Below are positions 5,086 through 36,871 of a stretch of 48,747 nucleotides of DNA, piece by piece (position 1 is the stretch's first letter; each line of letters starts with the position of its first letter). The notes below the pieces were generated by a model. It made no database searches and was not told the DNA's origin. It saw nothing but the letters and a program-made list of their open reading frames with translations. The stretch spans positions 17,140 to 65,886 of the forward strand of contig MFNE01000036.1 of assembly GCA_001783695.1 (NCBI GenBank), in the 5' to 3' direction. This DNA is from Candidatus Lambdaproteobacteria bacterium RIFOXYD2_FULL_50_16 (GTDB lineage: Bacteria; SAR324; XYD2-FULL-50-16). Position numbers and translations under genes: made by a program.

Positions 5086-5358
5086 TTAACCTGCTTGTGG
5101 GTCGCTGTCGCCAGACTTGCCCTTTTTTTCAGCAGCGTAGCGTTTTAGGTCTTCCGCTTTTTGCTTGATCAACTCTTCAAGCTTGTTTTTTTGGGCTAAA
5201 AGTTCGTCTAAGTCTAGTCCACTACCAAGCTTAAACGACTTAGGTAACCCGTCCAAGATTTCTTGTAACTCTTCCTGGTTTTTATTGGCTAATGCTTGCG
5301 CAAAATAGCCAGCAGCCAAACCGGCGCTTAACCCTATAAAAAAAGCTTTGGCGCTCAT
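5086..5358 (-). CDS. Small membrane-anchored coiled-coil protein
   Basis: A 90-residue protein with one N-terminal hydrophobic helix (about residues 4-24, with the Gly/Ala-rich spacing GLSAGLAAG), then a charged helical tail rich in Glu, Leu and Lys (about 27-78) that should form a coiled coil, and a polar end. The architecture resembles YtxH-like or other small stress-associated membrane proteins, but I cannot name a family. Its ATG overlaps the stop of the upstream 32-residue membrane peptide by 4 bases, so the two are probably translated together and may interact. Confidence 0.75.
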   Translation of the reverse strand: MSAKAFFIGLSAGLAAGYFAQALANKNQEELQEILDGLPKSFKLGSGLDLDELLAQKNKLEELIKQKAEDLKRYAAEKKGKSGDSDPQAG

Positions 5359-5453
5359 TTTTTCTCGACTGCTTTGCCGTACAGAAAAAATAGACCCAAG
5401 TAAACTGCACAGATGGCACCGAAAGTTGCCAAGATTTCAATTTCGTGAGACAT
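5355..5453 (-). CDS. 32-residue single-span membrane peptide
   Basis: A short gene with strong support: AGGAGG lies 5 bases before the ATG, a good promoter lies further upstream, and its TGA overlaps the next ATG by 4 bases. The peptide begins MSHEIEIL, has one hydrophobic span (about residues 8-25, ending GLFFLYG), and finishes KAVEKK. The acidic start and basic end favour a single membrane helix with the C-terminus in the cytoplasm. Its size and shape recall accessory subunits such as CydX or CcoQ, but no sequence family was recognised. The likely partner is the coiled-coil protein encoded directly downstream. Confidence 0.75.
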   Translation of the reverse strand: MSHEIEILATFGAICAVYLGLFFLYGKAVEKK

Positions 5454-5484
5454 GATTCCCTCCTAGAGTTTTGATATCGGCCCG

Positions 5485-5513
5485 ACTATACCCTAGCCCT
5501 ATCTGGGTGACAA
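5485..5513 (-). promoter_or_regulatory. Promoter of the small membrane protein pair
   Basis: Read on the minus strand: -35 TTGTCA (5508-5513), a 17-base spacer and -10 TATAGT (5485-5490), about 30 bases before the AGGAGG and ATG of the 32-residue peptide. Both boxes are one base from the sigma70 consensus. Confidence 0.65.
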
Positions 5514-5626
5514 CCAAAAATTACTTCATTTTGGCTAGGTTAAAAATTAAGTTTATTGGGGCTTTTTCAATCACTTTGTTTTAGGTAAGATCACGGCAAC
5601 ACCAACCACCAACCCTTAAGTAAAAT

Positions 5627-6181
5627 ATGGAAGGAATCTTTAACGAACTCGGCCACAAAATGAAGAAGGCCGCTGAACACTTAGACCTGGAATTCAGTAA
5701 GGTCCGCACTGGGCGGGCGAATCCGCAGATTTTGGACCACGTGATGGTCGATTATTACGGAACCCCTACCGCATTAAATCAGGTGGGCAATCTAAGTGTG
5801 CCCGATCCCCAGATGATCGTGATTACCCCTTGGGAAAAAAAGATGTTAAGCGAGATTGAGAAGGCCATATTGCGTTCCGATCTGGGTCTGACGCCGCAAA
5901 ACGACGGCAATATTATCCGCTTGCCCATCCCCTCTCTGACCGAAGATCGGCGTAAGGACCTAGTAAAACAGGTTAAAAAAATGGTCGAGGAGGCCAAGAT
6001 CGCGGTTAGAAATCTTCGGCGTGATGGGAATGAGCGTTTAAAGAAGATGGAAAAAGACAAAGAGATTGGCCAAGACGAGCTTAAAACCGGTGAAGCTCGC
6101 ATCCAAAAGGTCACCGACGAGGCAATCTCTAAGATTGAGCAAAAGTTGGCTGCAAAAGAAAAAGAGTTAATGTCAATCTAG
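5627..6181 (+). CDS. frr: Ribosome recycling factor
   Basis: The protein splits post-termination ribosomes together with EF-G. At 184 residues it is the normal length. Recognisable family sequences are KVRTGRANPQIL near residue 26, DYYGTPTALNQVGNLSVPD, ITPWEKKMLSEIEKAI, the PIPSLTEDRRKDLVKQVKK block in the hinge region, and the C-terminal helix ending in a basic and acidic coiled coil. The start ATG has only a weak Shine-Dalgarno. frr often follows pyrH or tsf, but here it stands alone, with clpB and its own operator 100 bases downstream. Confidence 0.97.
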   Translation: MEGIFNELGHKMKKAAEHLDLEFSKVRTGRANPQILDHVMVDYYGTPTALNQVGNLSVPDPQMIVITPWEKKMLSEIEKAILRSDLGLTPQNDGNIIRLPIPSLTEDRRKDLVKQVKKMVEEAKIAVRNLRRDGNERLKKMEKDKEIGQDELKTGEARIQKVTDEAISKIEQKLAAKEKELMSI

Positions 6182-6230
6182 CCTGGACCACCCTATCAGG
6201 AGGCCCCTTTTGTTAGGTGGGGTTGATAGA

Positions 6231-6257
6231 TTAGCACTCTTAATGGTAGAGTGCTAA
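6231..6257 (+). promoter_or_regulatory. CIRCE operator (HrcA binding site)
   Basis: A perfect CIRCE inverted repeat: TTAGCACTC (6231-6239), 9-base spacer, GAGTGCTAA (6249-6257). HrcA binds this site and represses heat-shock genes; repression is relieved by heat as GroEL becomes occupied. It ends 26 bases before the ATG at 6284. The gene controlled is clpB, possibly with the two overlapping or adjacent genes downstream. hrcA itself is not in the window. Confidence 0.96.
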
Positions 6258-6283
6258 TCATCTCGAATCTCCTCAAAAGGCTT

Positions 6284-8635
6284 ATGAACAACTTTGATCC
6301 CATCGTCTTAGGCAGTATCGAACTGGCTCAGGCCGAAGCACTTAAACGAAAAAACCCAGAACTCACTGAAATCCATCTGCTTTGGGGCCTGATTGGCAAT
6401 CCTAAAACAGTTAGCCATAAACGGCTTGGTGAGGAAAAAAAGCTTCTAAAAGGGTTACTCGAAAAACTTCCTACCCTAAGCCACCAAAGTCTTGATGGAA
6501 TCAGGCCCAGTAGCCTACTTTCCGAATGGTTCACCCTGTCCGCAGCCGATGCCATCGGCTCGGGACGCGACCAGATCGCTGAAGCCGACCTCTTGCGGCA
6601 CCTAAACAAGGTTTTCCCTCAGCTCCAATTTGAAATGCCCGAAGGTCCCGGAGCAAGCGAGGTGCCTGATTTTTTAACCAACCTTAATGAACTGGCTGAT
6701 TCAGGGAAGTTAGACCCGGTTATTGGACGGGCGCAAGAGATTCGAAGAGTACAAGAGATTTTGTGCCGCCGCACCAAAAATAATCCCGTATTAGTGGGCA
6801 GCCCCGGGGTGGGTAAAACCGCCATTGTCGAAGGCTTGGCGGGCTTAATCCAGACAGGCAAAGTACCTGATATTATCCAGGGCAAAACCATCTATAGCTT
6901 GTCGATGGGGAGCCTGATGGCAGGTACCAAGTTCAGAGGTGACTTTGAACAGCGGATTGAGGAACTACTTAAGTTTGTCAAAGACAAGGGACGAGATGCA
7001 ATTTTGTTTATCGACGAGATTCACCTGCTTATTGGTGCGGGCAAGACCGAAGGGGCAATGGACGCAGCTAACCTACTTAAACCCGCGCTGGCCAGGGGAG
7101 ATTTAAACTGTATTGGGGCTACGACCCTTGATGAATATCAAAAACATATTGAGGCCGATTCGGCCTTAGAGCGGCGCTTTCATCAGGTGCGAGTGCATGA
7201 ACCCACTAAGGAAGACAGCATCCAAATTCTTATGGGGCTCAAAGAACGCCTGGAAATACACCACGGAATCGAAATCACTGAAGAGGCGATTGTTTCGGCG
7301 GTTTATCTTTCAGATCAATTTATAAGCGAGCGGTTTTTGCCGGATAAAGCAATTGATATTATAGACGAAGCTGCGGCAGGCCTAAAACTAAGCGCCGACT
7401 CTATGCCACCCGAACTGGCCGAGTTGGAGGCGTCGATTCAGTCCAAAAAAATTCTGGCCTCTGCCAGCCCTCATAAACACCTGGAGCAAGAGATTAAGGG
7501 GTTAGAGGCCCAATTCGCTGAAAAAAAACGCCAATGGGACGAAAAAACGTTAGACCTAAAACGAGTGGCCCAACTCAAAAAACACCATGAAGATTTGCAA
7601 TTTCAATTGCAAAAAGCAAAACAAGACAATGACTTTGAAGCGGCTAGCCGTTTGCAATATGGGGAGCTTCCAAAGTTAGAGGCCGAGCTTAAAAAATACG
7701 AGGTTACCTGGAAATTAACCCGGCTCAATATTGGCGAGGTTATCGCCAGGGCCACCGGGGTGCCGGTGGAGCGCGTTTTGCGCTCGAATCAGGAAAATTT
7801 GCTCAAGTTAGAAGATTTTTTGAACGATCGGGTCCTTGGCCAGTCAGGCCCCTTAGGTGAAATCGCCGATACTTTGATCGCCGCCCATGCAGGCCTGACC
7901 GACCAAAACCGGCCCATGGGTAGTTTTTTACTAATGGGGCCTTCAGGGGTGGGGAAAACCGAGACCGCTAAAGCAATTCAAGACTTTTTGTTCCAGTCGA
8001 ACCGCCATTTAATCCGCATTGATCTCTCGGAATTCCGCGAGTCCCACGCGGTGGCCAAACTGATTGGGGCTCCGCCAGGGTATGTGGGTTATGCTGAAGG
8101 GGGCGTATTGACCGAGCCAGTACGGAAAAATCCATATTCCGTATTGTTGTTTGATGAGATTGAAAAGGCCCACCCAGACTTTGCTGATATTCTGCTACAA
8201 GTCCTAGACGACGGGCGTTTGACCGACAACCACGGGCGCACGGCGAACTTTAAAAACTGCATTATTTTTATTACCACCAATCTCAAAGACCCTAAATCCT
8301 GGCTGAAACCAGAACTTTTGGGAAGGTTAGATGCGGTTTTGGAGTATAAACACCTCAGTGCTGAAACAGTGCACCAACTGATTGACCGGCAACTATTTGA
8401 GCTAAATGAGCGTTTAGAGGATCGGGGACTAAAACTTAGCCTTGATCCAGCGCTGATTGAACGGGTTCAGGCCGCCGGTTTTGATGAATCATATGGGGCC
8501 AGACCCCTTAACAGCGCCTTTAGTCGGCTTGTGGTTAAACCCTTATCCAAGGCACTTTTGCAGCAGCCAGGGCTTAACGGTGAGCAGTTAATGGGTCTTA
8601 ATGACAACCAACCTTGGTTTAGGCCCCATGGCTAG
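6284..8635 (+). CDS. clpB: ClpB-type disaggregase, short form
   Basis: An AAA+ unfoldase that with DnaK extracts proteins from aggregates. The ATG at 6284 (AAAGG upstream) is preferred over the in-frame GTG at 6251, which lies inside the CIRCE operator. Its 783 residues comprise an N domain (1-130), a first AAA domain with Walker A GSPGVGKT (172-179) and IDEIH (243-247), a coiled middle domain, and a second AAA domain with [18 protein letters not shown] and [19 protein letters not shown] in the middle domain matches ClpB rather than ClpA/ClpC. The protein is about 70 residues shorter than typical ClpB: the middle domain is about 20 shorter, and the segment before the second arginine finger (LLGRLDAV) is also reduced. 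The first pore loop has KFRG in place of KYRG. Confidence 0.92.
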
Positions 8636-10040
8636 GGACCTTAAAGGCAAATCACTGTTAGTGATTGACCGAGACTCGGGATTTTTGCGTCAAGCAAAAG
8701 GTCTGCTTAGTGATCTTGGGGCGCAGGTACATTTGGCCCATAGCCTTGAAGACGCTTTGAGCCTGTTAAGTGTCACCCCGGTGGAGTTGGTTTTTTTTGA
8801 GGCCCAGCTTCCCTTTTCGGGGGCTGAACTCAAATTGAATTATCAGACATTGAATCGGGCCGCCCGGTTTTTTGCATTGGTCGATAAGTCCGGTAAGGGC
8901 AGTGAAGCGGCCCAAGGGGTGGATGGCTTTTTGGTCAAGCCACTATCGATTGTGGAGGTGTTAAAAAAGACCGCTCCGAACGAGTCCGCCCAACATCTTC
9001 CTGTAAGCCGATTAGATCCTCTGACCGAGCTTTTGCGGCCCTACTTGATCTTTCGCTCCGCTTTAATGCGGCGACGGCTGCAAATGTTACCTCAAATGGC
9101 CGCCAGCGACCATGGGGTGTTGATCACAGGTGAAACGGGGACCGGTAAAGAAATGGCCGCCCACGCCATTCACGACCTAAGCCGCTACAAAAACGGCCCT
9201 TTTATCGCGGTCAATTGCGGGGCGATTCCAGAGACCTTGATCGAAGGGGAACTCTTCGGTCACGAAAAGGGGGCGTTCACGGGCGCTGGGAATCTACACA
9301 AAGGTAAGTTTGAATTAGCCCAAGAAGGCACCCTGTTTTTAGATGAAATTGGGGAGATGCCTTTGCTCTTGCAAGCCCGGTTGCTTAGGGTTTTAGAGGA
9401 GCGAGCAGTGTACCGGATTGGGGGGGAGAAGCCAATCCCGGTGGACCTGCGAGTTTTGGCCGCGACCCGAGTAGATCTAGCTAAAGCGGTGGAAAACGGA
9501 CTGTTTCGAGAGGACCTATATTACCGCCTAAATATCTTGCCACTGCATCTACCCGCCCTACGCGAACGCCCAGAGGATATTGCTTTATTGGCTTGGTATT
9601 TTTTAGAGCGAGCCTTTTTAGAAGCAAAGCGGCAACCGCCCTTTCCGAGTTTGACCGAAGCCTCTATTTCTATCTTGTCCGCTCAAGTTTGGCGGGGAAA
9701 TGTTCGCGAGTTGCGAAATCTGATGACCCGCTTGGCGGTGTTGCTGCCCCCCTCGATTGGCTATATTGAGCCCAAACATCTGCTGGCCTATTTTCCTGAA
9801 GCCTTAAACACCGAGCCAAGGAACGAACGTCCGGCCCTTAATGGGGTGATCGAATTAAGCCCCCAATTGACGGAGGCCCCTAAAGAGGGGATTCTTATCC
9901 CTTGGGGAACCCGCTTGGATGAGGCCGAAGGGCTTATTTTGCAAGCAGTACTTGATCAGGTCGGCGGCAACCGCAGTGAGGCGGCCCGCCTCTTGGGGAT
10001 CAGCCAACGCACTATTAGGCGAAGGCTTAACGAGATTTGA
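8601..10040 (+). CDS. Sigma54-dependent activator with pseudo-receiver domain
   Basis: An NtrC-family enhancer-binding protein of 479 residues. The receiver-like domain (about 15-125) keeps the acidic pair (IDRD) and the Lys (K113), but the phospho-accepting Asp is Glu (E67 in VFFEAQLP). The AAA+ domain has GETGTGKE (177-184), the sigma54-contacting GAFTGA (224-229) and Walker [12 protein letters not shown] (243-253). The C-terminal Fis-type helix-turn-helix is [20 protein letters not shown]. The start overlaps clpB by 35 bases; an alternative ATG at 8628 overlaps by 8 bases, and neither has a strong Shine-Dalgarno. The overlap suggests readthrough from the CIRCE-controlled promoter. In NtrC the D54E change is known to give phosphorylation-independent activity, so this protein may be constitutively active. 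No cognate kinase lies next to it. Confidence 0.92.
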
Positions 10041-11020: not shown

Positions 11021-11308
11021 CTAGTTGTGCTTGGGGTGGTCAGCGACCTGGGTTATAGCAAAGCGAACCACCGACTCCACGTCCTCATCGGTCACCTCTT
11101 TATTGAGAATGATGCTTCCTAGATGCGCATAGGTGGCGGGAATGCGCGATAAGGCCAAAGCGTAAACATCTTCAACACACATCGAACACTGGTCGAAGCT
11201 CGGGTATTCGTTCATCACTTTTTTAATGGATTCGATCACCATCAGTTCGCATATATTTCGGATGCGTTCGAGTGAGCGTCCGTTGATCAAGTAACGGTTT
11301 GTTTTCAA
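11021..11308 (-). CDS. ComFB-family protein (candidate c-di-GMP receptor)
   Basis: A 95-residue protein of the late-competence ComFB family. The signature is CSMCVEDVYALALSRIPATYAH: the CxxC pair followed by D-V-ALAL and the Pro-x-x-Tyr element, with helices on both sides. ComFB proteins in cyanobacteria have been reported to bind c-di-GMP, and B. subtilis comFB lies in the comF locus. Here the gene starts at a TTG, with AGGAG 6 bases upstream, and begins 17 bases after the hybrid kinase stop codon, so it is probably the last gene of that transcript. A nucleotide-sensing role next to the kinase is inference. Confidence 0.8.
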   Translation of the reverse strand: MKTNRYLINGRSLERIRNICELMVIESIKKVMNEYPSFDQCSMCVEDVYALALSRIPATYAHLGSIILNKEVTDEDVESVVRFAITQVADHPKHN

Positions 11309-11325
11309 AACAATCTCCTAAAAAG

Positions 11326-14103
11326 TTATTCGTTGTGAAGTTGGGCTGCGTATAACCCTAAAAGGTCTTGCAGTGCGTAGGGATCAATGGGTTTGGATAC
11401 GTAATCATCCATCCCGGCATCGAGGTATTTTTCTCGATCGCCTCGCATAGCATTGGCGGTCATGGCCACAATAAAGGGGCGCTGCCTGGGCTCAAGATTT
11501 CGCATTAGGTGTTGAGTAACTTCCATCCCATCCATCTCGGGCATCTGGATATCCAGCAGTATCATGTCGTATCTTTCTTGGGAAATCTTCTCGATAGCTT
11601 CTTTCCCATCCTCTGCCAGGGCCGCCGAATATCCCATTTTTTCTAGGAGTTTTAGGATTAAGGTCTGGTTGAGTTCGTTGTCTTCTGCGACTAAGATTCG
11701 CATGGGTAAACGCGAACCTAAAGTTTTATCAAGGGTTTGAATCACGGCTTTAGCTCCCGATGCGACACCTAGAGATTGTTGCATAACTTCAAACAACGGA
11801 CCTAAGCGAATTGGTTTGGAAATTAAGATCCCACTTGGACAAATTCGGTCGTAAAATTCGTAATTTAAAAACCCCATTTTCACCATCGAGAGTTCTAACT
11901 CTTTCACTTTTGCGCAAAGAGCGGAGGTCTCTTTTAGACAGGTACTGTTAGTTCTCGGTAGATTAAATAGAATTAAAGCGTTTCGGTCTTTTGGTCCTAA
12001 CTGATTAATATCAGACGTAGTTAATTGAAATTTTGTCACCAAAAAACCAGATTCTTCTAAGACCTGAGCCCAATGAATCTGGTGAACCAGATCATAGTCG
12101 AAATAAAGGACTCGCTTGCCAGCCATATGGGGCGAAGGTCGGCGAATGATACTTGCCAGTTCCGCTTGGCCGACCTCGCAAGGCAAATTAAAATAAAAGG
12201 TGGCACCTTTGGCGGTGTCTGAATTGACGCCGAGGTTGCCCCCCATCAGTTCAATGAGTTGCTGGCTAATAGCCAGCCCAAGTCCAGTCCCAGGGTACTT
12301 GCGCGTATTTGAGGCGTCTAGCTGGGTAAAGGCTTTAAAGAGCCTCGCTTGATCTGCTAGTGCGATACCAATCCCTTTGTCTTCAACTGAAAATTCCAAA
12401 TTAATCTTAGAATCAGTTGCCGGATTTGGAGCTGCGATTCGCACCAAAACATCTCCCCCATCGGAGAATTTAATAGCATTGTCCAAGAGGTTATTTAAGA
12501 TCTGCCTTAACCGGATTGGGTCCCCAATCACTACCAGGGGAACCTTTTTGTCGATTCGGTAGATTAGCTCTAACCCTTTTTCAGCTGCCTTGGTTTGGGA
12601 CAGGGTAAAGGCTTCCTCAATCAACAAATGGAGATCAACGGGCAACTTTTCAAGCTTGATCTTGGCGGATTCGAGCTTAGTAAAGTCTAAAATATCATTG
12701 ATAACCGCTAGTAAGGACTCGCCGCACTGATTGATAATATGGACAAATTCGGTTTGCTCTTCATTTAACGGGGCTTGTTCTAAGAGACTGGCCATCCCTA
12801 AAATACCGTTAAGAGGGGTCCTGATCTCGTGGCTCATTACCGCTAAAAACCGACTCTTGGCTTCGACCGCTGCTTCTGCGGCTTGTTTAGCCTGGGCGAG
12901 TTCACGGATTAACTTTTCGCGTTCCGTAACATCGACCAACACACAAGCATATTGACCAGGTTTGGGGCAAAGTCCGTAATATTCAATTTGCCGGTCAAGG
13001 CTTGGGTAATATACCTGAAAGCGGGCTGGTTTGCCAGTTAAAACCACCTCTAACATCTGTTTAAAGTTGGTACCTTCGACCGAAGCAAATTGGCTTAGAA
13101 GTTGACCTACCCGGCTTTCAGTGACGCCAAATATTTTATCATGCGCCCGATTCGTCTCAACAAATCGGAAGTCGATAGGTTGATTGTTGGCTCCTAAAAT
13201 CACGTCAAACAGGATATACCCGTTGAGCATGGTTTCAAAAAGCATCCGATATTTGCTTTCTCGATTCGTAATTTCGATTTTGGCCCGTTGGGCTTGGGTC
13301 ACATCACGAAGTACTAACGCTACCTCTCCACTGGTTCCAATTGGATAAAAGATCCGATCATACCACCTACCATTCCAATCTACGATACCACTTTGGGATT
13401 CGCCGGTTTCTTGTGCTTTTTTAAAACGCTCTTTTGCGGCCTCAACCTGGGTGGGTTCAATTTTGTCCCATAACTGACTACCTTGCAGTTCATGACCAAA
13501 AAGCTGGACAGCCATCCGGTTGGCTTCTATAACCGTCCCGGCCTTATCCATTAAAAGATTAATACTCGAAGGCGCATCAAGGAGGGCTCGGGTGCGTGAT
13601 TCTTGAAGCTGTAAACGTTCGTTGGTCTCAACCATCTGACCGGCATCTTTGGCCACAAACAGGATATGAGGCTCGCCAAACATTTCAATGACCTTTGCCG
13701 AGGTCAAGCCATAAGCGTAGGTCCCGTTTTTAATTTTGTAACGCAAAATTTCACCATCTATAGAACCTTTTACCTTCAATTGGCGGTAAACACGGTCCCT
13801 AATGCTATCATCGGCCCACAGACCTAATTCGTTGGAGGTTTTACCGATAGCCTCTAGGGCGCTCCACCCAGTTAGCTTGCAGAAACCTTCGTTGACTTCA
13901 ATGATTTTTTGATCGGAAATGCGGACAATAGAGACCGAAACTGGAGATAACTCAAAAGCTACTTGAAATTTATCCCTCGCTAAGCGTAACTCGGTCAATT
14001 CTGCTTGGGAGGCCTCATGACGGGCTTTCAAATCAGCCAGCGTTTGTTTGAGCTGGTCTAATTCGCTTTGGTCTCTTTGGGCTAGGTCGGCGTGGGACGA
14101 CAT
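11326..14103 (-). CDS. PAS-containing hybrid histidine kinase
   Basis: A 925-residue soluble kinase with no membrane helix. In order: an N-terminal coiled coil (about 5-45), three PAS-like domains (about 46-165, 170-275, 285-400), a HisKA domain with phospho-acceptor H425 in MSHEIRTPLNG, a HATPase domain with NLLDNAIKF and GTGLGLAI, a degenerate receiver-like segment starting LYFDYDLV that has no clear phospho-Asp, and a complete C-terminal receiver (ILVAEDNELNQ, D851 in LLDIQMPEMDG). The first PAS domain is followed by a second sensing module with NGRWYDRIFYP. Cytoplasmic sensing is likely; the ligand is unknown. Upstream lies a TerB-like gene and downstream a comFB gene, all on one strand. 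The output may be the ComFB protein or an unlinked regulator. Confidence 0.93.
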   Translation of the reverse strand: MSSHADLAQRDQSELDQLKQTLADLKARHEASQAELTELRLARDKFQVAFELSPVSVSIVRISDQKIIEVNEGFCKLTGWSALEAIGKTSNELGLWADDSIRDRVYRQLKVKGSIDGEILRYKIKNGTYAYGLTSAKVIEMFGEPHILFVAKDAGQMVETNERLQLQESRTRALLDAPSSINLLMDKAGTVIEANRMAVQLFGHELQGSQLWDKIEPTQVEAAKERFKKAQETGESQSGIVDWNGRWYDRIFYPIGTSGEVALVLRDVTQAQRAKIEITNRESKYRMLFETMLNGYILFDVILGANNQPIDFRFVETNRAHDKIFGVTESRVGQLLSQFASVEGTNFKQMLEVVLTGKPARFQVYYPSLDRQIEYYGLCPKPGQYACVLVDVTEREKLIRELAQAKQAAEAAVEAKSRFLAVMSHEIRTPLNGILGMASLLEQAPLNEEQTEFVHIINQCGESLLAVINDILDFTKLESAKIKLEKLPVDLHLLIEEAFTLSQTKAAEKGLELIYRIDKKVPLVVIGDPIRLRQILNNLLDNAIKFSDGGDVLVRIAAPNPATDSKINLEFSVEDKGIGIALADQARLFKAFTQLDASNTRKYPGTGLGLAISQQLIELMGGNLGVNSDTAKGATFYFNLPCEVGQAELASIIRRPSPHMAGKRVLYFDYDLVHQIHWAQVLEESGFLVTKFQLTTSDINQLGPKDRNALILFNLPRTNSTCLKETSALCAKVKELELSMVKMGFLNYEFYDRICPSGILISKPIRLGPLFEVMQQSLGVASGAKAVIQTLDKTLGSRLPMRILVAEDNELNQTLILKLLEKMGYSAALAEDGKEAIEKISQERYDMILLDIQMPEMDGMEVTQHLMRNLEPRQRPFIVAMTANAMRGDREKYLDAGMDDYVSKPIDPYALQDLLGLYAAQLHNE

Positions 14104-14114
14104 CGGCTCTGTGC

Positions 14115-14150
14115 TCTAGCAGTTGAAGCGCTCACGAGGCGCATGCTAGA
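14115..14150 (-). repeat. Hairpin in the leader of the hybrid kinase gene
   Basis: Arms TCTAGCA (14115-14121) and TGCTAGA (14144-14150) enclose a smaller GCGC/GCGC pair with CTC and GAG next to it. The structure ends about 11 bases before the kinase ATG and could mask the weak ribosome-binding region. It is not followed by a T-run in either direction, so it does not look like a classical terminator. Confidence 0.4.
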
Positions 14151-14219
14151 AAGCTACCCGATTGACAGCGGCAAATCTACAAAAAACGACTTTTGTTACC
14201 CAATTTAATGGGGGTATAG

Positions 14220-14594
14220 TTAAAGCGTTTTTTTAAGCTTTTCTAATAGCTCAAGTTCTTCGTCCTCAAATACGCCATCCGCTCCCATCACCGCTCCCAT
14301 TAAATCAACCAAAACTTGGCGAAACTCGATGCTAATAGTGGGTAAAAAATCAGCGAAAAACAACTCTTCTTTAGAAAGCTCCCCTTCTTTGGTTTCAGAT
14401 GCCTCGAAAAATGCGACTACTTCTTCGTCGATTTCGCGGAACATACCGCGCACTGTGCCCCAACCGGGCTGCCAGTGTTCTTCGGCAAATTTTTCGATTA
14501 CTTTGAGTTCTGAATCGTCCATGTACCCATCGGCAGCAGCCATAATAAATGAGGCCAGAACAATCTTGTGAAGGGAATCTTTATCGAATGTCAT
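14220..14594 (-). CDS. TerB-like tellurite-resistance-family protein
   Basis: A 124-residue all-helical acidic protein. Two copies of the TerB-type acidic turn are visible: AAADGYMDDSE near residue 19 and MGADGVFEDEE near residue 105, each followed by a Leu-rich helix. TerB/DUF533-like domains bind metal ions and occur in stress and membrane-associated systems, mostly without known enzymatic activity. No other ter gene (terC, terD, terZ) is present, so tellurite resistance should not be assumed. It lies 116 bases upstream of the hybrid kinase gene on the same strand; the intervening hairpin suggests separate control or processing. Confidence 0.72.
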   Translation of the reverse strand: MTFDKDSLHKIVLASFIMAAADGYMDDSELKVIEKFAEEHWQPGWGTVRGMFREIDEEVVAFFEASETKEGELSKEELFFADFLPTISIEFRQVLVDLMGAVMGADGVFEDEELELLEKLKKTL

Positions 14595-22755: not shown

Positions 22756-24417
22756 TTAGGGCTCAACCCAGCGTCCTTCAGTTTTAATCAGTGCAAGCAA
22801 CGCCGGAACCGCTTCGGCTTCGTCGAGGCCTCGGCTAACCCGATTCTGGCCCAGGTAAAGGTCGATTTTGCCGAGCCCAGAGCCAACATACCCAAAATCA
22901 GCATCCGCCATTTCGCCGGGGCCATTTACAATACATCCCATAATCCCAATCTTGACCCCCTTAAGGTGTCTGGTTTGGGCTTTGATTTTGGCGGTGGTCT
23001 CTTCTAGGTCAAAAAGCGTGCGGCTGCAACTGGGGCAGGCGATGTAGTCGGTCATAAAGATGCGGGCTCGGGTCGCTTGTAAGAGATAAGCGAGTAGGGT
23101 CTGCTCCTTTATATTAAGACCGGCTTGGATTACCAGAAAATCGACCAAACCTTCTGCCAAAACCCCGGCTATTTGAATCTGAGTAAATAGGCTATTTAAG
23201 GCGCAATTCGAGACTAATAGACCAATAGGGCAGGGGCTTGGGCCCAGTTGGGCATAAAAGGCTCGAAGCGTAAATAGAGGCGAAGGGTGGTCTAAAACCC
23301 AAGCTTCGGGAAGTGGGATAGGAGAAGGGTAAACCTTAAGTAAGTGTCCTTCGATCTCAAATCCTTCAGCGCCTTGCTGGACCGTGATGTCTGGAACTAA
23401 TTGAGGATTTTTATTAAGGCCAATTTCAGCAATAATCGCTAAAGGGGAAGTCCCCCCAAGAGTGACCTCCCCCAGATTAACCACCGCGTTGCCTACTCGG
23501 TTTTGAGCCAGGGGCCTAGTCCAATAGCTCGTTGATGGTGGGCATTGAGGGGGTAAAGCGGCCAAAAGTTGACCTCCATACTCGATCTCATGTTCGCTAG
23601 GTTCGGTTAGCGAGACCCGGATGGTGTCACCGAGTCCGTCAACCAGCAAAGGACCAATCCCGACTAGACTTTTTGCGCGGCCCATCAAACCCTCACCAGC
23701 CTCGGTTACCCCAATATGAAGCGCCAGGGGTTCCTTGGGTTCGCGCATTTGATCCAAAAGCCGGTAGGCCTTCTGCACAGTCAAGGGGTTCGAAGATTTT
23801 AGAGAAACCACTAAATCTAAAATCCCTAAGTCCTCTAAGAGGTCCACCGCCTCCAAAGCAGAAGCCACCATCCCTATAGGGGAATCCCCAAACTGGGCCA
23901 TCATTCGTTCAGACAACGAACCTTGGTTAACCCCCACTCGCAAGGCACGGCCATATTTTTTGGCCGCCAAGGCTAAGGGAATCAAGGCCTCTTTGAGGCG
24001 CTCTCGCCCCACGGCAAAGTTGTCTAGGCTAGGGCGGCTGTTTTTGGGGCGGTCAGAAAAGTTGCCTGGATTAATCCGAACCTTTTCGAAAAACTCACAG
24101 GCGTCTATAGCCAATTGGGGGACAAAGTGAACGTCTGCCACTAAGGGCCGGTCAATGCCTTCTTCAGTCATTAACCGCCGAAGGTTGCCAGTGGCCTCAA
24201 GTTCTTTTTGGTGGGGAATACTTAAACGAATTAATTGGCAACCAGCCCGGTCCAGGGCTGAAATCTGGGCTAGCGCCCGTTTGGGGTCGGTAGCCGAGGC
24301 GGTGATCATCGATTGCAGGACAATTGGATTATTACCTCCAATTGTCAAAGAACCCACCTTTACCGGGCGCGAGAGACGGCGCCCAGGGCCAAGTGGATAG
24401 CGGATTTGCTCCACCAA
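22756..24417 (-). CDS. ispG: 4-hydroxy-3-methylbut-2-enyl diphosphate synthase, long form
   Basis: Penultimate step of the MEP isoprenoid pathway; an iron-sulfur enzyme that converts the cyclic diphosphate to HMBPP. The N-terminal TIM barrel reads PIVLQSMITASATDP, LIRLSIP, VADVHFVPQLA and KVRINPGNF. The 4Fe-4S ligands are C461 and C464 (in CPSC) and C495 (in GCIVNGPGE). At 553 residues it is about 180 longer than the E. coli type. A region of low similarity (about residues 285-440) separates barrel and cluster domain, as in the inserted IspG of plants, Chlamydiae and Bacteroidetes. It starts 2 bases after the rpoZ stop codon, so it is in an operon with rpoZ and a TPR gene. Confidence 0.95.
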   Translation of the reverse strand: MVEQIRYPLGPGRRLSRPVKVGSLTIGGNNPIVLQSMITASATDPKRALAQISALDRAGCQLIRLSIPHQKELEATGNLRRLMTEEGIDRPLVADVHFVPQLAIDACEFFEKVRINPGNFSDRPKNSRPSLDNFAVGRERLKEALIPLALAAKKYGRALRVGVNQGSLSERMMAQFGDSPIGMVASALEAVDLLEDLGILDLVVSLKSSNPLTVQKAYRLLDQMREPKEPLALHIGVTEAGEGLMGRAKSLVGIGPLLVDGLGDTIRVSLTEPSEHEIEYGGQLLAALPPQCPPSTSYWTRPLAQNRVGNAVVNLGEVTLGGTSPLAIIAEIGLNKNPQLVPDITVQQGAEGFEIEGHLLKVYPSPIPLPEAWVLDHPSPLFTLRAFYAQLGPSPCPIGLLVSNCALNSLFTQIQIAGVLAEGLVDFLVIQAGLNIKEQTLLAYLLQATRARIFMTDYIACPSCSRTLFDLEETTAKIKAQTRHLKGVKIGIMGCIVNGPGEMADADFGYVGSGLGKIDLYLGQNRVSRGLDEAEAVPALLALIKTEGRWVEP

Positions 24418-25434: not shown

Positions 25435-27384
25435 CTATAACCCTTGAGTCGCCTCTTGGATCTGGGCCAGATTGATAGGTTTAGTTACAAAATTATCCAT
25501 TCCCACGGACAAACATTCCTGCTTTTCTCCCTCGGAGGTCCCGGCGGTCATAGCACAAATGGCCACTCGAGCTACCTTTTTTTGCTCTTCAAATTGCCTT
25601 ATCCGCCTAGTCGCTTCCAGGCCATCCATCACTGGCATACGGACGTCCATCAGGATCAAGTCTAGGGTCCGCTTTTGCATGCGGTAGTCGATGTATTTCA
25701 TCACTGCTTCTTGTCCGTCAGCCGCCGTATCCACAGAGTAACCCTGCTTTTTTAACATGGTTAAGCCTAGTTTGGTGTTGAGTTGGTTGTCGTCAACCAA
25801 AAGGCAGTGCAGTTTTTTTGCCGGTTTTATTGCAAATACGGAGGACGAATCGATAGCCGGCGCGACCACCGGTTCTAAAACAGGGGCGCTATATAGCTTG
25901 GGTAATATAACCGAAAATTGACTACCTTTGCCTTCTTCACTTTGCACCAAAATCTCGCCCCCATGTTGTTCAACCAATTCCTTGGTAATTGACATGCCCA
26001 AGCCTGTGCTGGCTTCCCCGGCGGTGCCTGGGCGGCTAGCTTGGCTGTATTTGTCAAATAAGAACTGGATTTTGTCTTTAGGAATACCGATCCCCGAATC
26101 AATCACTGAGACTTTGATTTTATCATCCCCGACAGGTTCGATGATTTGACGGATTTTGCCGCCTTTGGGGGTAAACTTGATGGCGTTGGAGAGTAGGTTG
26201 TTAAAGACCCGCATCAGACCGCCCCTGTCTCCCGAGATTCCCGACTGTTCGCAGCGATTTTCTATTATTAATTCCAAACCTTTAGGGCTGGCCATATGGC
26301 GCAGGGTTTCGGTGGCAGACTTAATGATATCTGAAACCTCAACCGGTTTGAAGTCTAACACATTGTTTTCTGAGTTAACCCGCCCTAAATACAAGATCTC
26401 CCCAATTAGGCTTAATAAAAACTCGCCTGATTGTTGTACGTGGCCCAAGTATTCACGCTGGATTTCGGTTAATCCTTCTTCGCTTAAGAGCAATTGGGAA
26501 AAACCCATGATTCCGTTTAAGGGAGCGCGTAGATCGTGGCTGGTAACCGCTAAAAATTCGTCTTTTAGTTTATTGAGTTTTTTAAGCTGATGAACCTTGT
26601 TTTCCAAATCTTTGGTTAATTGCCTAGCCTCGAGGTGAACTCGAATCCGGCTAAGCAACTCCTCTTTGGCAAAGGGCTTAATAACATAATCCGAAGCCCC
26701 GGCTTTGAAGATTCGCAAGATCTCACCGCGCTCGCTCATCGCTGATAGGAATATTATCGGCAAGCTTTTGTTTCCCAACTCATTTCTAATTTTTTTACAC
26801 AACTCGTCGCCGTTCATTTGGGGCATAAAGTAGTCGGTCAAAAGTAGATCAATTTCGTGCTCTTTACGTTTGATCAGGTCAAAGGCCTCGACGCCGTTAG
26901 AGACCAGATAGGTTTGAACCCCTTCGGCACGCAAGATGTTGTCGATCAGTTGACGGGCCATGTTGGTGTCTTCGGCGACCACTACCTTAAGACCTGAAAG
27001 ACCCTGTTTGAGGTTTAAGAGTCGGTTTACCGATTCGACCACCTCGCCTTTGATAAAAGGCTTGGTAATAAAATCCGAAGCACCGACTTCAAACCCACGG
27101 CTACGGCCTTCGATGGTATCATTGGCCGTGATAAACACGACCGGTAGGTTTTTAAAATAGTCGTTTTCAGGTCCAAAATCCGAGCGCAGCCGGAAGCAGG
27201 CTTCAAAGCCGTTTAGCCGCGGCATGTCCACGTCAAGGGTGACCAGATTAGGTCGGAGTTGGGGAATCTTTTCTAAGGCGTCCAATCCGTCCACCGCTTC
27301 GCAAGTCTCGTATCCTGCGTCTTGTAACTCACGGCTCAAGATTTTGCGCATCATTGCGCTGTCATCGACTACCATTACTTTCAC
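25435..27384 (-). CDS. Triple-receiver hybrid histidine kinase
   Basis: A 649-residue soluble signalling protein with domain order REC-REC-HisKA-HATPase-REC. The phospho-Asp residues are D51 (LVTLDVDMP), D184 (LLTDYFMP) and D580 (LILMDVRMP). The phospho-His is H283 in TSHDLRAPLNG, and the ATP-binding domain has NNLLSNAIKF, DSGIGIP and STGLGMSI. All three receivers keep the acidic pair and the KP motif. There is no sensor domain or membrane segment, so the input probably arrives through the N-terminal receivers, as a phosphorelay hub. The start is GTG (27384), with GAGGGG about 8 bases upstream. It follows hom by 33 bases and may be cotranscribed with glnD and hom. Confidence 0.93.
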   Translation of the reverse strand: MKVMVVDDSAMMRKILSRELQDAGYETCEAVDGLDALEKIPQLRPNLVTLDVDMPRLNGFEACFRLRSDFGPENDYFKNLPVVFITANDTIEGRSRGFEVGASDFITKPFIKGEVVESVNRLLNLKQGLSGLKVVVAEDTNMARQLIDNILRAEGVQTYLVSNGVEAFDLIKRKEHEIDLLLTDYFMPQMNGDELCKKIRNELGNKSLPIIFLSAMSERGEILRIFKAGASDYVIKPFAKEELLSRIRVHLEARQLTKDLENKVHQLKKLNKLKDEFLAVTSHDLRAPLNGIMGFSQLLLSEEGLTEIQREYLGHVQQSGEFLLSLIGEILYLGRVNSENNVLDFKPVEVSDIIKSATETLRHMASPKGLELIIENRCEQSGISGDRGGLMRVFNNLLSNAIKFTPKGGKIRQIIEPVGDDKIKVSVIDSGIGIPKDKIQFLFDKYSQASRPGTAGEASTGLGMSITKELVEQHGGEILVQSEEGKGSQFSVILPKLYSAPVLEPVVAPAIDSSSVFAIKPAKKLHCLLVDDNQLNTKLGLTMLKKQGYSVDTAADGQEAVMKYIDYRMQKRTLDLILMDVRMPVMDGLEATRRIRQFEEQKKVARVAICAMTAGTSEGEKQECLSVGMDNFVTKPINLAQIQEATQGL

Positions 27385-28728: not shown

Positions 28729-31700
28729 CTATTGATGGATTTCACTGTCTAAAAATTTCGCCAATACCTGATCAAACTGCTTGTCTTCAAGCAGTTGTTT
28801 TTCTTCGGCACTAACGTAAAAATAATCTACCAACTGATTCCCGATGGTGGTCACGGTAACCTGTATCGGAGTTACCCCTAGGCTGGCTAAAGCCATCATG
28901 ATCTTGAAATAGGCGTAAGCCGTGTCTAACATAGAAACCTTTACCGCCCAACACTCTACGGGCTGTCTTAAAAACTGGCCTGGTTCGGTTTCGGTGACTT
29001 GATAACCCTTTTCGCGCTCCAAGAAATAGCTAACCTGCAGTTTTACTTGATGCTTGGCAACCCAACTTGGTCGCCCCATGTCGGGTAGATGTAGGTTTAA
29101 CACCATTGATTCTAACTCGACTACCGAGATTTCACCGCCCTTGAGGCTTACCCCTTGAAAAAAGCCAACCACCCCTTGGCTGCCGTCGAGATAAACCACC
29201 CGGTTGATTTTTGCTAGTTCGAGGTTGATCCCTTTTGAGTTGAGGGCAAAAGCGATTTTTGCTTGGATGCCAGGGTCTTCGTTGGCGTAAAACAGGAGAC
29301 TGTCATATTCCCCAGCAGAACCTTTGATAAAAGAAAACCTGAGGGTTTGCTCTCTGAAGTTATCAAAGTCTAATAATTGGCGGGTTAGCTGTTGTGGGGA
29401 AGCCGATAATAGATAACGGTTGGGGATGGCCGTAAAAAACCAATGCCAATCGCTAGAATAAGGTCGGGCTAGGTTAAAAAGCTGATCTTTAGGAACCTGA
29501 TCGGCCAATATCCGGCTGAATCGCTGGTAGTGTTTGTCCAGGCTTTTAGGGTCTAATTCGCCGAGGGCCAAATAATGCACCGCTGAAGATAATTCAGACC
29601 GATTTTTTAAAAGTTGCTCACTGATTTTAGGAGCAGCTAAGCGCAAAGGTTCTAATAAAACCTCGTCCAAGCTCCGGTTGCAGGCCTGATGCAGCAATAA
29701 ATCGCGAATGACCGCTTCTTTTTGTTCCTCAACCTTTTGATCTAAAAATTCATTAATGGTTTGCGTGAGGTTCGCCCCATGGCGGATTACCTCGAGAATA
29801 CTTAAAACCCGTTGAAAAAACTCATCCAAGTGGCCAGCTTTATCCGCCATTTGTTCGCTGACTGATTTGAAATCGGAAATATTGACCAGATAAAGCAAAA
29901 TCAACTTTCTCGGGTCCCTTTGTGCTAATTCGAAAAATTTGAGCAGGCCAAGGTCGAGATGGGTCGAAAGTTTAGAGAAGCGGACCATTGATTGGTGGTG
30001 CTGCACCAACAACCGGATCAAGTCCACCAAGTCTGAGTTTACATCAAAACCTAAACGGTCGAGCATCCGCCCAGATAACTTAGGCCCCAGCTGCTCATGG
30101 TCTCGAAACAGGTTGATCTTGCCTAGGTCATGAAAAAAAATCGACCATTTAAGGGCGAACAATTCGCCTGGTCCTATAAAACGCCAGAGTTCAGGCTCGT
30201 TTCGGCGAAATTTAACAATCTCCAACTCCATCCGGGCTAACGCCTTTTGCGAATGAATGCAAAGCGGGTATTGATGCACCTCTAGGTTCCGCAAGAGATA
30301 TCGCATCTGATTGACTTCGGGTAAAAACAATCCCAAAAGGGTGCGCGCTTGGTCATTTTCAATGGGCAAGGCAATGTCCATCATCTGTTTGACCGCCTCT
30401 GCTGAATGCTCGGCTGAAAAGAGATGAAACACAAAATCTTGCAGCGCTTCTTTAGGCAGTTCGCTTTGTTTTTTATAAAGGCGGCTTAAGAGATTGGCCA
30501 ACCCTTCAGCCAAAGGCCCGGCGAGGTCGTTGCCGTTATTAGCCAGATAACCAAAAAGGGCAAATAGGTTATTCCAATCTAAAAATAATTCCTCGTCGAT
30601 CTGACCTGGGGCGCGCTCGGGTCGGTTGTAGTCCCAAAGTTTGCGAATTTGATTACTGCCTAAATGTTTAACTAACAAGAACCCAGGCAAACGCTCCTCA
30701 TGCATCCGGTCCAAAACCTTAGCGATTAATTTATCGGCCAAAGTAGCCAGGGACAAAGAGGCGTTCAAGCGGTTTAGGTCCAGTTGATCCACTTGGGTAA
30801 AGCGGTGTTTAAGCTTGAGGTAGGCCATAGCCAAACGGTCCGTAAACCGCTCGCTAAGTTTTTCTTGAGCCAAGAGTTTTTCGCCCATGCTCTCAAGTAT
30901 AGGGCGGTATTGCTCGTATAGCCCCATAAAATTTCGCAAATCCCAGATGGTCTCTAGGGACTGGATGGCGACGGCTCTCTGCACCGGGGTTAACCAGCCT
31001 TTTTCTTCTAATTCGCCAAGCAAACCAAAGGTATCGGTTTTTTTTGGCTTGGTTAACAACACCACCATCCAAAGCGCAAACTGAAGGTGCCTAAGCCCTC
31101 CGCGCCCTTCTTTAAGGGTTAATTCTTCGATCCGGTCCAGCTTGAGCTCTGCAACCTGCGCATTTAAAAACCTGACCATCCGCTCAGTTGGGCAGGCTGC
31201 GCGGACTTCTTTTTTAAAACGGTCTAAAAGCTTAGCGTTCCCTGAAATTAACCGGGCCTCTAATAGGGAAGGAATGGCGTGTAAGGCTTCGGTTTGAGAA
31301 AACCGTTCTAAATCTTCTCCCAATTCAAAATACTGGCTTGCTACCTCTAGGGGAACCTCGACAAAGAGTTCGCTTAAGCGCTTGAGTTGTTCTTGTAAGA
31401 CTAATCGATCCAGTTTACCTAATCCCTCTAAATCAACCAGATAGGCTAAATCAACATCAGAGGCAAAACTGAGTTCCCGCCTCCCATAGCCCCCTCTGGC
31501 GATCAGGGCAAAATGGGGGGTAAACCGGTGGGGGTCGTGTTGGTAGTTTTTGATTTGAGGTAACGTTTCTTCGATTAGCTCAATTTGGGCTTCAGCCGAT
31601 TTTTTGTCTGTTAAGGTAGTCTGTAACAGATTATTATAATAGGCATATTCAGCGGGGTCCATCGGCGCTGGGGTGCCGTCGGCTAAAAATAAGAGGCTGG

Positions 31701-32040
31701 ATAGCTCGGCCGCTTTTAAGGCTTTGGCCGGTAACAATCCGTTAAGGTAACTCAACTTTCCACTAGATTCTTGGGCAAGGGATTTGATCAACATCAAGGT
31801 TTCTTCCTGCACAAAATCCCAACTAAAACAAACCCAGCCGTCCATCCAAGTGGTCAGACGCTCTAGGCCAGCTAAGGCTTCCCGGTCCTTGAGGTGAGCC
31901 AAGGCACTTTCTTTTTGGTAGGTCGTCCAAAGGGCTAAAAACCGCTGCTTATAGGCCTGTTTGCGGGCTTGTAGGCCTTGGTCAATAAGGTCTGCGGTTT
32001 CAAAATGGGGGTGGGGTAAGGCTTTATTGGTGCTGTTCAT
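28729..32040 (-). CDS. glnD: PII uridylyltransferase / uridylyl-removing enzyme family, long form
   Basis: GlnD attaches and removes UMP on PII proteins according to glutamine level. The nucleotidyltransferase motif is GGYGRRELSFASDVDL (about residues 183-198, with the Asp pair), the HD hydrolase motif is FFHDLGKINLFRDHE (H637) and two ACT-like regions follow near 900-990 and 1020-1090. At 1103 residues it is longer than typical GlnD (850-950), with about 90 extra residues before the transferase motif and a long middle. Catalytic residues of both activities are present. Its PII substrate (glnB/glnK) is not in the window. hom follows directly, and purQ is divergently encoded upstream. Confidence 0.9.
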   Translation of the reverse strand: MNSTNKALPHPHFETADLIDQGLQARKQAYKQRFLALWTTYQKESALAHLKDREALAGLERLTTWMDGWVCFSWDFVQEETLMLIKSLAQESSGKLSYLNGLLPAKALKAAELSSLLFLADGTPAPMDPAEYAYYNNLLQTTLTDKKSAEAQIELIEETLPQIKNYQHDPHRFTPHFALIARGGYGRRELSFASDVDLAYLVDLEGLGKLDRLVLQEQLKRLSELFVEVPLEVASQYFELGEDLERFSQTEALHAIPSLLEARLISGNAKLLDRFKKEVRAACPTERMVRFLNAQVAELKLDRIEELTLKEGRGGLRHLQFALWMVVLLTKPKKTDTFGLLGELEEKGWLTPVQRAVAIQSLETIWDLRNFMGLYEQYRPILESMGEKLLAQEKLSERFTDRLAMAYLKLKHRFTQVDQLDLNRLNASLSLATLADKLIAKVLDRMHEERLPGFLLVKHLGSNQIRKLWDYNRPERAPGQIDEELFLDWNNLFALFGYLANNGNDLAGPLAEGLANLLSRLYKKQSELPKEALQDFVFHLFSAEHSAEAVKQMMDIALPIENDQARTLLGLFLPEVNQMRYLLRNLEVHQYPLCIHSQKALARMELEIVKFRRNEPELWRFIGPGELFALKWSIFFHDLGKINLFRDHEQLGPKLSGRMLDRLGFDVNSDLVDLIRLLVQHHQSMVRFSKLSTHLDLGLLKFFELAQRDPRKLILLYLVNISDFKSVSEQMADKAGHLDEFFQRVLSILEVIRHGANLTQTINEFLDQKVEEQKEAVIRDLLLHQACNRSLDEVLLEPLRLAAPKISEQLLKNRSELSSAVHYLALGELDPKSLDKHYQRFSRILADQVPKDQLFNLARPYSSDWHWFFTAIPNRYLLSASPQQLTRQLLDFDNFREQTLRFSFIKGSAGEYDSLLFYANEDPGIQAKIAFALNSKGINLELAKINRVVYLDGSQGVVGFFQGVSLKGGEISVVELESMVLNLHLPDMGRPSWVAKHQVKLQVSYFLEREKGYQVTETEPGQFLRQPVECWAVKVSMLDTAYAYFKIMMALASLGVTPIQVTVTTIGNQLVDYFYVSAEEKQLLEDKQFDQVLAKFLDSEIHQ

Positions 32041-35755: not shown

Positions 35756-36871
35756 ATGGGTTCTACCCTAGCCTGTTTTATAACCGCCCACGGCTTCGGG
35801 CATGCAGCCCGAGCCTCGGCGGTCCTCGCTCAACTGGCCCTTTTAGAGCCAGACCTAGAAATTCATCTCTATACCCAAGTCCCTTATCGGTTTTTTGAAC
35901 AGTCCTTAGCTGGCGGGTTTGAATATCACGAACTTGACGTAGATTTGGGGTTGATTCAGACCAGCGCCTTAAAGGTGGACCTACCCCAGAGTTTGGCCGC
36001 GCTTAGGTCTCGCTTGCCTTTTAAAGCCGAATGGGTCACGCAATTGGCCGAAGAGCTTAAGCAAATTAACGCAAATTTTGTTTTAGCGGACATTGCTCCT
36101 TTGGGACTGTTAGTGGCCCGTCAGGCCCAAATTCCCTCTTTTTTACTGGAAAATTTCACTTGGGACTGGATTTATCAGAGTTATAAAGAATATGATCAGG
36201 CCTATGTTCAGCTTGCGGTGTATTTAAAGGGTTTGTTTGATTTGGCCGACTGGCATATCCAGGGGGAACCCTTTTGTCAGGAGTTTTCGGGAGCCCTGGT
36301 AACCGAGCCGATTGCTCGTAACTCCAGAAAAACCCGATTAGAAACTCGAATACAGCTGGGTTTGCAACCTGATCAAAGGCTTTGTTTGCTTACCCTCGGT
36401 GGTTGGGGTGGCGCTCATCTGGGCCCGCCAAGGGGGAGGCTTGAAAAATCTTGGGTGTTTGTAAGTCCTGGCGCTAGCCAACAGGTTGAGCAAGTAGGCA
36501 ATTGGATCAAACTGCCCAAAGAGTCGGAATTTTATCACCCTGATTTGATGGCGGCGGCAGATTTGGTGGTGACCAAGTTAGGTTATAGTACCATCGCAGA
36601 GGCTTGGGTATCGCAAACTCCCATGTTATACTTGGCTCGCCCAGATTATGTTGAATCGGCTCCGTTAGAGGCGTGGGTTAAAAAAAATATCCCTTCTGGG
36701 CGGATTGCGTGGAAAAAAATAGCCCAAGGAAATTGGGCAAACCAACTAAACGAGATCGTCCTAGTCCCTAAAGGCCCGCCCAGACGTGGTGGAGCCTCAA
36801 TAGCCGCTCAGTGGATTTTTGAGAAGCTGCATGAACGAAAAAAAGAAATACCGGATTTTGGTGGTCGATGA
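35756..36871 (+). CDS. GT-B fold glycosyltransferase-like protein
   Basis: 371 residues with a glycine-rich first loop (ITAHGFGHAARASAV) and a second domain with LLTLGGWGG and the nucleotide-sugar-type region DLMAAADLVVTKLGYSTIAEAW, the pattern of MurG-like or macroside-type GT-B transferases. A related N-terminal domain occurs in arabinose- and galactokinase-linked proteins. The substrate is unknown. The last 41 bases overlap the HD-GYP regulator gene, and lnt and selA follow closely. The start codon has only a distant AGGG. Confidence 0.75.
   Translation: MGSTLACFITAHGFGHAARASAVLAQLALLEPDLEIHLYTQVPYRFFEQSLAGGFEYHELDVDLGLIQTSALKVDLPQSLAALRSRLPFKAEWVTQLAEELKQINANFVLADIAPLGLLVARQAQIPSFLLENFTWDWIYQSYKEYDQAYVQLAVYLKGLFDLADWHIQGEPFCQEFSGALVTEPIARNSRKTRLETRIQLGLQPDQRLCLLTLGGWGGAHLGPPRGRLEKSWVFVSPGASQQVEQVGNWIKLPKESEFYHPDLMAAADLVVTKLGYSTIAEAWVSQTPMLYLARPDYVESAPLEAWVKKNIPSGRIAWKKIAQGNWANQLNEIVLVPKGPPRRGGASIAAQWIFEKLHERKKEIPDFGGR

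Follow-up and report, generated by a model that had tools for sequence, protein, structure and literature searches.

Introduction

ComFB is a recently recognised receptor of cyclic dinucleotides, and PMC12313861 presents the sharing of ComFB between cyclic di-GMP (c-di-GMP) and cyclic di-AMP (c-di-AMP) as an open question. According to the same paper, Synechocystis ComFB binds c-di-AMP (2.6 uM), also binds c-di-GMP, and acts on pilus genes. Zinc in B. subtilis ComFB is reported to be held by C25, C27, C30, and C88, the last of which is Cys or His in homologues (PMC4381287). In the Caulobacter histidine kinase ShkA, c-di-GMP is described as bound by a pseudo-receiver, freeing the kinase from inhibition (PMC7010744; PMC12632262). 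Here we analyse a 48,747-nt stretch (hereinafter the window) of a 3.14 Mb SAR324 (Lambdaproteobacteria) genome, in which the gene of a PAS hybrid histidine kinase is directly followed by a comFB gene. We tentatively propose, at somewhat less than even confidence, that a c-di-GMP-responsive ComFB modulates the neighbouring kinase.

Results

The kinase and comFB genes are linked in three genera

Three genes on the minus strand are transcribed in the order TerB-like protein, hybrid kinase, ComFB, as defined by open reading frames (ORFs) and Pfam matches:

14220..14594, minus strand, TerB-like protein (124 aa; Pfam PF05099, 29.4 bits vs cut-off 24.4)
11326..14103, minus strand, PAS hybrid histidine kinase (925 aa; PAS, HisKA, HATPase_c, and Response_reg by Pfam)
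11315..11319, minus strand, AGGAG, probable ribosome-binding site of comFB by sequence, inside the gap 11309-11325
11021..11308, minus strand, ComFB-family protein (95 aa, TTG start; Pfam PF10719, 49.3 bits vs cut-off 25)

The ORFs, their coordinates and shared strand, and the 17 bases between kinase stop and comFB start agree with the original prediction, and Pfam supports all three gene names. The TerB-like gene is separated from the kinase downstream of it by 116 bases. The AGGAG ahead of TTG in the 17-base gap makes the TTG start of comFB credible. The kinase gene and comFB would be co-transcribed as a two-gene operon.

The family of the window's genome is represented by ten genomes, G000 (the window's own) to G009. 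Among the matches listed, full-span matches to the kinase occur only in G002 (46% identity) and G005 (41%). In both, the kinase is directly upstream of ComFB and the pair sits after argC, as in the window. Counted from the first possible start, the spacing is 10 bases in G002 and 0 in G005. The pair is therefore present in three genera. For comparison, concatenated Frr, NtrC, and ArgC from the two other pair-bearing genera are 68% and 55% identical to those of the window, vs 46% and 41% for the kinase. In G003, G006, G007, G008, and G009 the frr-ntrC-argC block is present, other genes follow argC, and there is no pair. In G001 ntrC and argC are together and the contig stops just past argC, while the search of the family genomes gave no argC match in G004.

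A tree of joined Frr, NtrC, and ArgC from nine genomes splits G000, G002, and G005 from G001 and two larger-genome genera (support 96.4/96). The tree is unrooted, and both a gain of the pair on its side of the split and a loss on the opposite side would fit it. The pair probably has one origin in the three genera. The linkage of ComFB and kinase is conserved but narrow, and an order kept at 41-46% kinase identity is more than chance. An absence of conserved linkage, named in the original prediction as a ground for refutation, is therefore not what these genomes show.

ComFB is predicted to share the fold of CdgR and to carry a metal site

Among named organisms, RIFOXYD2_FULL_56_26 has the closest ComFB (L083; 72% identity), and the named relatives are 'Candidatus Lambdaproteobacteria' and SAR324 metagenome-assembled genomes (MAGs). 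An AlphaFold2 model of the window ComFB was built from 19 sequences, with a mean predicted local distance difference test score (pLDDT) of 86.8. The closest solved fold is that of B. subtilis ComFB (4wai; Z 10.6, 81 residues, root-mean-square deviation (RMSD) of 2.8), followed by the c-di-GMP complex of Synechocystis CdgR (8hja; Z 9.1), a ComFB protein that is a receptor of both c-di-GMP and c-di-AMP. The next row has a Z of 7.1, and rows with Z < 8 were set aside; for helical models, Z values up to ~13 may reflect a common arrangement. Foldseek also places 4wai (E 4e-3, probability 1.00) and 8hja (E 1.3e-2) in the lead, with no match at E <= 0.001. The sequence profile of ComFB finds 4wai first (E 4.3e-9) and 8hja next (E 6.8e-6). 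Given the caution for helical folds and the Foldseek values, the fold call leans on this agreement of the sequence profile, by which the window protein is predicted to have the ComFB fold.

The window ComFB belongs to the same Pfam family as CdgR, and its N18, E21, D47, A50, L53, and Y60 align with CdgR residues. The CdgR chain is much longer (179 aa, vs 95 aa in the window), and the metal-ligand residues are present only in the window ComFB. The cyanobacterial analogy drawn in the original prediction is thus imperfect, as c-di-GMP binding was solved in a ComFB of the type that has no such residues.

The predicted metal ligands are D39, C41, C44, and H94. Specifically, the two Cys of the CxxC motif and a His at the C-terminal ligand place are kept relative to the B. 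subtilis zinc site, whereas the first zinc Cys of B. subtilis is an Asp in the window. At this first ligand place, 19/19 ComFBs in the family of the window have Asp, and 7/7 in family f4 have Cys. In a comparison of 39 ComFBs (34 SAR324 and 5 others), 28 have both CxxC and the C-terminal His, 8 have neither, 3 have the His alone, and 0 have the Cys alone. This co-occurrence is what one shared metal site would predict, and ComFB may bind metal. The genomic setting differs from those of the described homologues: the window comFB adjoins argC and the kinase, and has neither the comFA or comFC neighbour of Bacillus nor the hfq neighbour of cyanobacteria. Such linkage is a trait of the context, not of the protein family.

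ComFB presence tracks GGDEF counts in SAR324 genomes

We compared ComFB with the synthases of the two messengers in 52 SAR324 genomes, which are related to one another; 20 are ComFB-positive and 32 negative. GGDEF matches, which take in partial or degenerate domains, number 2 to 15 per ComFB-positive genome and 0 to 5 per negative genome, with 14 in the window's own genome. Per-genome counts are those of the genome rows, not tallies of the match lists, which were capped. At a cut of three, picked after the counts were known, at least three GGDEF matches are found in 18/20 ComFB-positive vs 2/32 negative genomes (Fisher 7.5e-10). The difference persists with one genome per genus (15/17 vs 1/9; 2.3e-4) and among genomes of 2.2-4.4 Mb only (10/12 vs 1/24; 2.7e-6).

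The area under the curve (AUC) for ComFB presence in all 52 genomes is 0.973 for GGDEF, 0.857 for sigma-54 activators (whose counts are lower bounds where there are > 54 candidates), 0.752 for genome size, and 0.494 for PilO. Within family f4, the corresponding values are 0.857, 0.429, 0.452, and 0.500; family f1 contributes a single ComFB-negative genome, 68% complete. The pooled within-family AUC for GGDEF is 0.971 (0/5000 permutations). In contrast, the c-di-AMP cyclase DAC does not discriminate, being present in 19/20 ComFB-positive vs 28/32 negative genomes (p 0.64) and once in the window's own genome. Sigma-54 activator number and genome size associate with ComFB too, but less than GGDEF, so we read the correlation as suggesting that c-di-GMP is the messenger of ComFB in SAR324.

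Besides c-di-GMP binding by cyanobacterial ComFB, the original prediction had cited an HD-GYP phosphodiesterase and a divergent PilZ-like protein in the window. An HD-GYP response regulator is indeed present (36819-37871), but it is 22 kb from the ComFB-kinase pair. Pfam gave no PilZ match in 43/44 non-overlapping window ORFs (all except the one truncated at the left edge of the window), although a very divergent PilZ could evade Pfam. The argument from the window is consequently weak, and the link to c-di-GMP is supported indirectly by the CdgR match and the GGDEF counts.

PilO matches occur in 6/20 ComFB-positive genomes, 10/32 negative genomes, and 0 times in the window's own genome. The control Synechococcus elongatus, credited with PilO in PMC12313861, gave no match to this model, so PilO absence means little. 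A pilus role for ComFB is unsupported by these counts, which are a weak test.

The hybrid kinase contains a pseudo-receiver

The domains of the kinase are as follows:

13645..13971, minus strand, PAS domain 1 (residues 45-153, Pfam PF00989)
13288..13554, minus strand, PAS domain 2 (residues 184-272, Pfam PF08448)
12667..12861, minus strand, HisKA phosphoacceptor domain (residues 415-479, His425; Pfam and motif position)
12178..12525, minus strand, HATPase_c catalytic domain (residues 527-642, Pfam)
11734..12126, minus strand, pseudo-receiver (about residues 660-790; no phospho-Asp, Lys763-Pro764-x-Arg766 kept)
11365..11697, minus strand, canonical receiver (residues 803-913, Asp851; Pfam and motif position)

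A third PAS-like stretch is likely from the alignment. Hydropathy indicates no transmembrane-like stretch in the kinase (top 19-residue mean 1.38), and the Pfam scan gave no histidine phosphotransfer (HPt) match within it. The best NCBIfam match of the kinase is NF008318, of the BarA-type hybrid kinases, and the pseudo-receiver of BarA is mentioned in PMC7010744. The match scores 430 bits vs a cut-off of 890; the missing transmembrane-like stretch and HPt match also set the window kinase apart from this type.

The extra receiver was correctly described as degenerate in the original prediction: the phospho-Asp is missing in 3/3 orthologs, while Lys-Pro-x-Arg is kept. Such a domain is common rather than strange, since pseudo-receivers are described as widespread in histidine kinases (PMC7010744). 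The window pseudo-receiver was modelled as a complete receiver fold. A PDB sequence search with the pseudo-receiver alone gave nothing useful. For the model of pseudo-receiver plus receiver, the top PDB match by E-value is ShkA (9.6e-13), with a domain arrangement that does not superpose (TM-score 0.39, RMSD of 13; predicted TM-score of the model 0.50), and ShkA is the second PDB match by sequence for the catalytic half of the kinase. ShkA (6qrj) has the same order of dimerization and histidine phosphotransfer (DHp) domain, catalytic and ATP-binding (CA) domain, pseudo-receiver, and receiver, and its Arg344 aligns with Arg766 of the window kinase. The two systems differ in that the window kinase has PAS domains in front and a separate ComFB gene alongside.

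The TerB-like gene is an inconstant companion of the pair

The TerB-like protein passes the cut-off of the TerB family (PF05099) and has the paired acidic motifs, DGYMDDSE and DGVFEDEE. A PDB sequence search with it gave nothing useful, and the neighbours scanned include no other tellurite-resistance (Ter) family. TerB lies beside the kinase in G002 (38% identity), whereas the TerB genes of G005 lie elsewhere, none beside the kinase, which rules out a constant three-gene unit. Thus, what remains of the three-gene signalling unit first proposed is the kinase-ComFB pair, with TerB beside it in only one other genome. The TerB-like gene is an optional upstream companion and a possible, inconstant third member.

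TerB is within ~3.2 kb of ComFB in 5/9 family genomes holding both, against about 0.06 genomes expected by chance (our own arithmetic). Only two lineages are involved, with two arrangements (G000 and G002; G003, G006, and G008, which are one genus), and we regard this linkage as a lead. In 19 further SAR324 genomes, TerB is within three genes in 3/33 other ComFB contexts. In one genus, a TerB-like gene is near a different ComFB paralog (L050, 6066-7246; L052, 5920-7096); a small gene, NUDIX in L050, separates the two, and TerB is on the opposite strand.

Other ComFB contexts and other genes of the window

Neighbours scanned at other ComFB genes include NUDIX, ABC permease, S49 peptidase, shikimate kinase, methionine synthase, FliM-like, and CheB genes. 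ComFB is directly after a FliM-like gene in G004 (L055, 4857-6290) and directly after a CheB gene in a Desulfobacterales MAG (L098, 2159-3650), which hints at a connection with motility. In one genus of the family (L087, L089, and L091; about 5140-8318), a HATPase_c protein that we read as CheA-like is encoded upstream of ComFB on the same strand. A general preference of ComFB for kinase neighbours does not follow; the window's own genome alone has 115 matches to this kinase, so one further case is too few.

Past comFB, argC, an NtrC-type activator gene, a ClpA/ClpB-like gene, and frr lie on the plus strand, convergent with comFB. The NtrC-type sigma-54 activator (8601-10040) has an N-terminal receiver that looks degenerate, with FFE where the phospho-Asp stretch is usual. 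Its G005 ortholog differs at this place, and the activator adjoins argC in the 8 other family genomes with argC read. Farther away, the window encodes GcpE (IspG; 22756-24417, 553 aa), in which residues 17-545 match a Pfam model of only 343 positions, so that a large insertion seems likely; another hybrid kinase (25435-27384), which has three receiver matches but lacks a PAS match; and a 1103-aa protein with weak GlnD/GlnE-type matches, adjoining homoserine dehydrogenase (28729-32040).

Discussion

The tentative proposal that ComFB modulates the kinase in response to c-di-GMP draws on the short spacing and on an order kept in three genera despite kinase identities of only 46% and 41%, on the tracking of GGDEF counts by ComFB, on the fold and profile match of ComFB to c-di-GMP-bound CdgR, and on the PDB matches of the kinase to ShkA. 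The kinase is without the c-di-GMP features of ShkA and has a ComFB gene in its operon; taken together, these are most simply read as ComFB holding the ligand site and the kinase being the target. Specifically, ComFB would be a small dimeric c-di-GMP receptor whose fold is held by the metal site; it would bind the kinase and change kinase activity according to c-di-GMP. PAS input and second messenger would thereby be integrated ahead of phosphotransfer from His425 to Asp851 and onward to a separate HPt protein. The pseudo-receiver between ATPase and receiver would be the likely regulatory hinge, as in ShkA. A more specific version, in which ComFB is a detachable receptor subunit that binds c-di-GMP and docks on the pseudo-receiver, so that the one-domain function of ShkA is split over two proteins, appears improbable.

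Several observations weigh against this proposal. The kinase adjoins only 2/33 other ComFB genes in the 19 further SAR324 genomes, where a kinase neighbour was defined by a match to the catalytic region of this kinase, a test that CheA-like proteins escape; the pair is found in the window, G002, and G005. A near relative of ComFB in G001 (56% identical) has no such kinase next door. CdgR has no CxxC, unlike the window ComFB, so the c-di-GMP binding of CdgR need not hold here. On the kinase side, the DDR motif of ShkA (D369 and R371, in the linker between the two receivers, REC1 and REC2) is LDK in the window and FNA and LNS in the orthologs, and ShkA Tyr338 is replaced by Ile759 in the window, with no Tyr in the other two orthologs (ShkA residue numbers are those of the PDB chain offset by 12, which fits D369, R371, and Y338). 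Membership in the ShkA family proper is thereby ruled out. The GGDEF association is also not exclusive: in family f3 sigma-54 activators and genome size (AUC 0.981 for both) are on par with GGDEF (0.991), and the pooled within-family AUC is 0.862 for sigma-54 activators (4/5000 permutations) and 0.873 for genome size (3/5000). Finally, DAC is near-universal (47/52), so c-di-AMP is a possible ligand.

Since 31/33 other ComFB genes are without such a kinase next door, the strongest rival holds that ComFB, as a receptor of c-di-GMP (or c-di-AMP), works on targets elsewhere in the cell and shares the operon only for expression or by inherited order. The diversity of ComFB neighbours (among them NUDIX, ABC permease, shikimate kinase, methionine synthase, FliM-like, and CheB) agrees with it, as does Anabaena CdgR, which is reported to work partly via the transcription factor DevH (PMC13075795), and a single origin could account for the pair in three genera. 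An order kept at 41-46% kinase identity, with a spacing of at most 17 bases, argues in the other direction, and we consider this rival about as likely as our own proposal, somewhat below even.

Alternatively, ComFB might be a metal or redox sensor, in which redox state sets the zinc occupancy of the D-C-C-H site, the kinase receives this signal, and nucleotides are secondary. The joint presence or absence of CxxC and C-terminal His would suit such a site, ComFB follows a rhodanese gene that lies after the CheA-like gene in L089 and L091, and zinc or redox sensing has been proposed for B. subtilis ComFB in PMC4381287, an article that also weighs a purely structural zinc. We consider a sensor of this kind unlikely, as it leaves the association of ComFB with GGDEF number unaccounted for. 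That ComFB is chiefly a c-di-AMP receptor, as in Synechocystis, and perhaps acts on pili is quite unlikely: the binding reported in PMC12313861 and the DAC gene of the window's own genome speak for it, but DAC is present regardless of ComFB while GGDEF number differs sharply, and the genome has no PilO match, a weak point given the missed control.

In the library searched, 20 papers mention ComFB and one, an array paper, mentions it together with histidine kinase; no paper combines Lambdaproteobacteria with diguanylate cyclase. SAR324, in which ComFB presence varies with c-di-GMP synthase number and the c-di-AMP cyclase is near constant, offers a direct test of the ligand of ComFB, and the candidate partner kinase in the same operon offers a direct test of its target.

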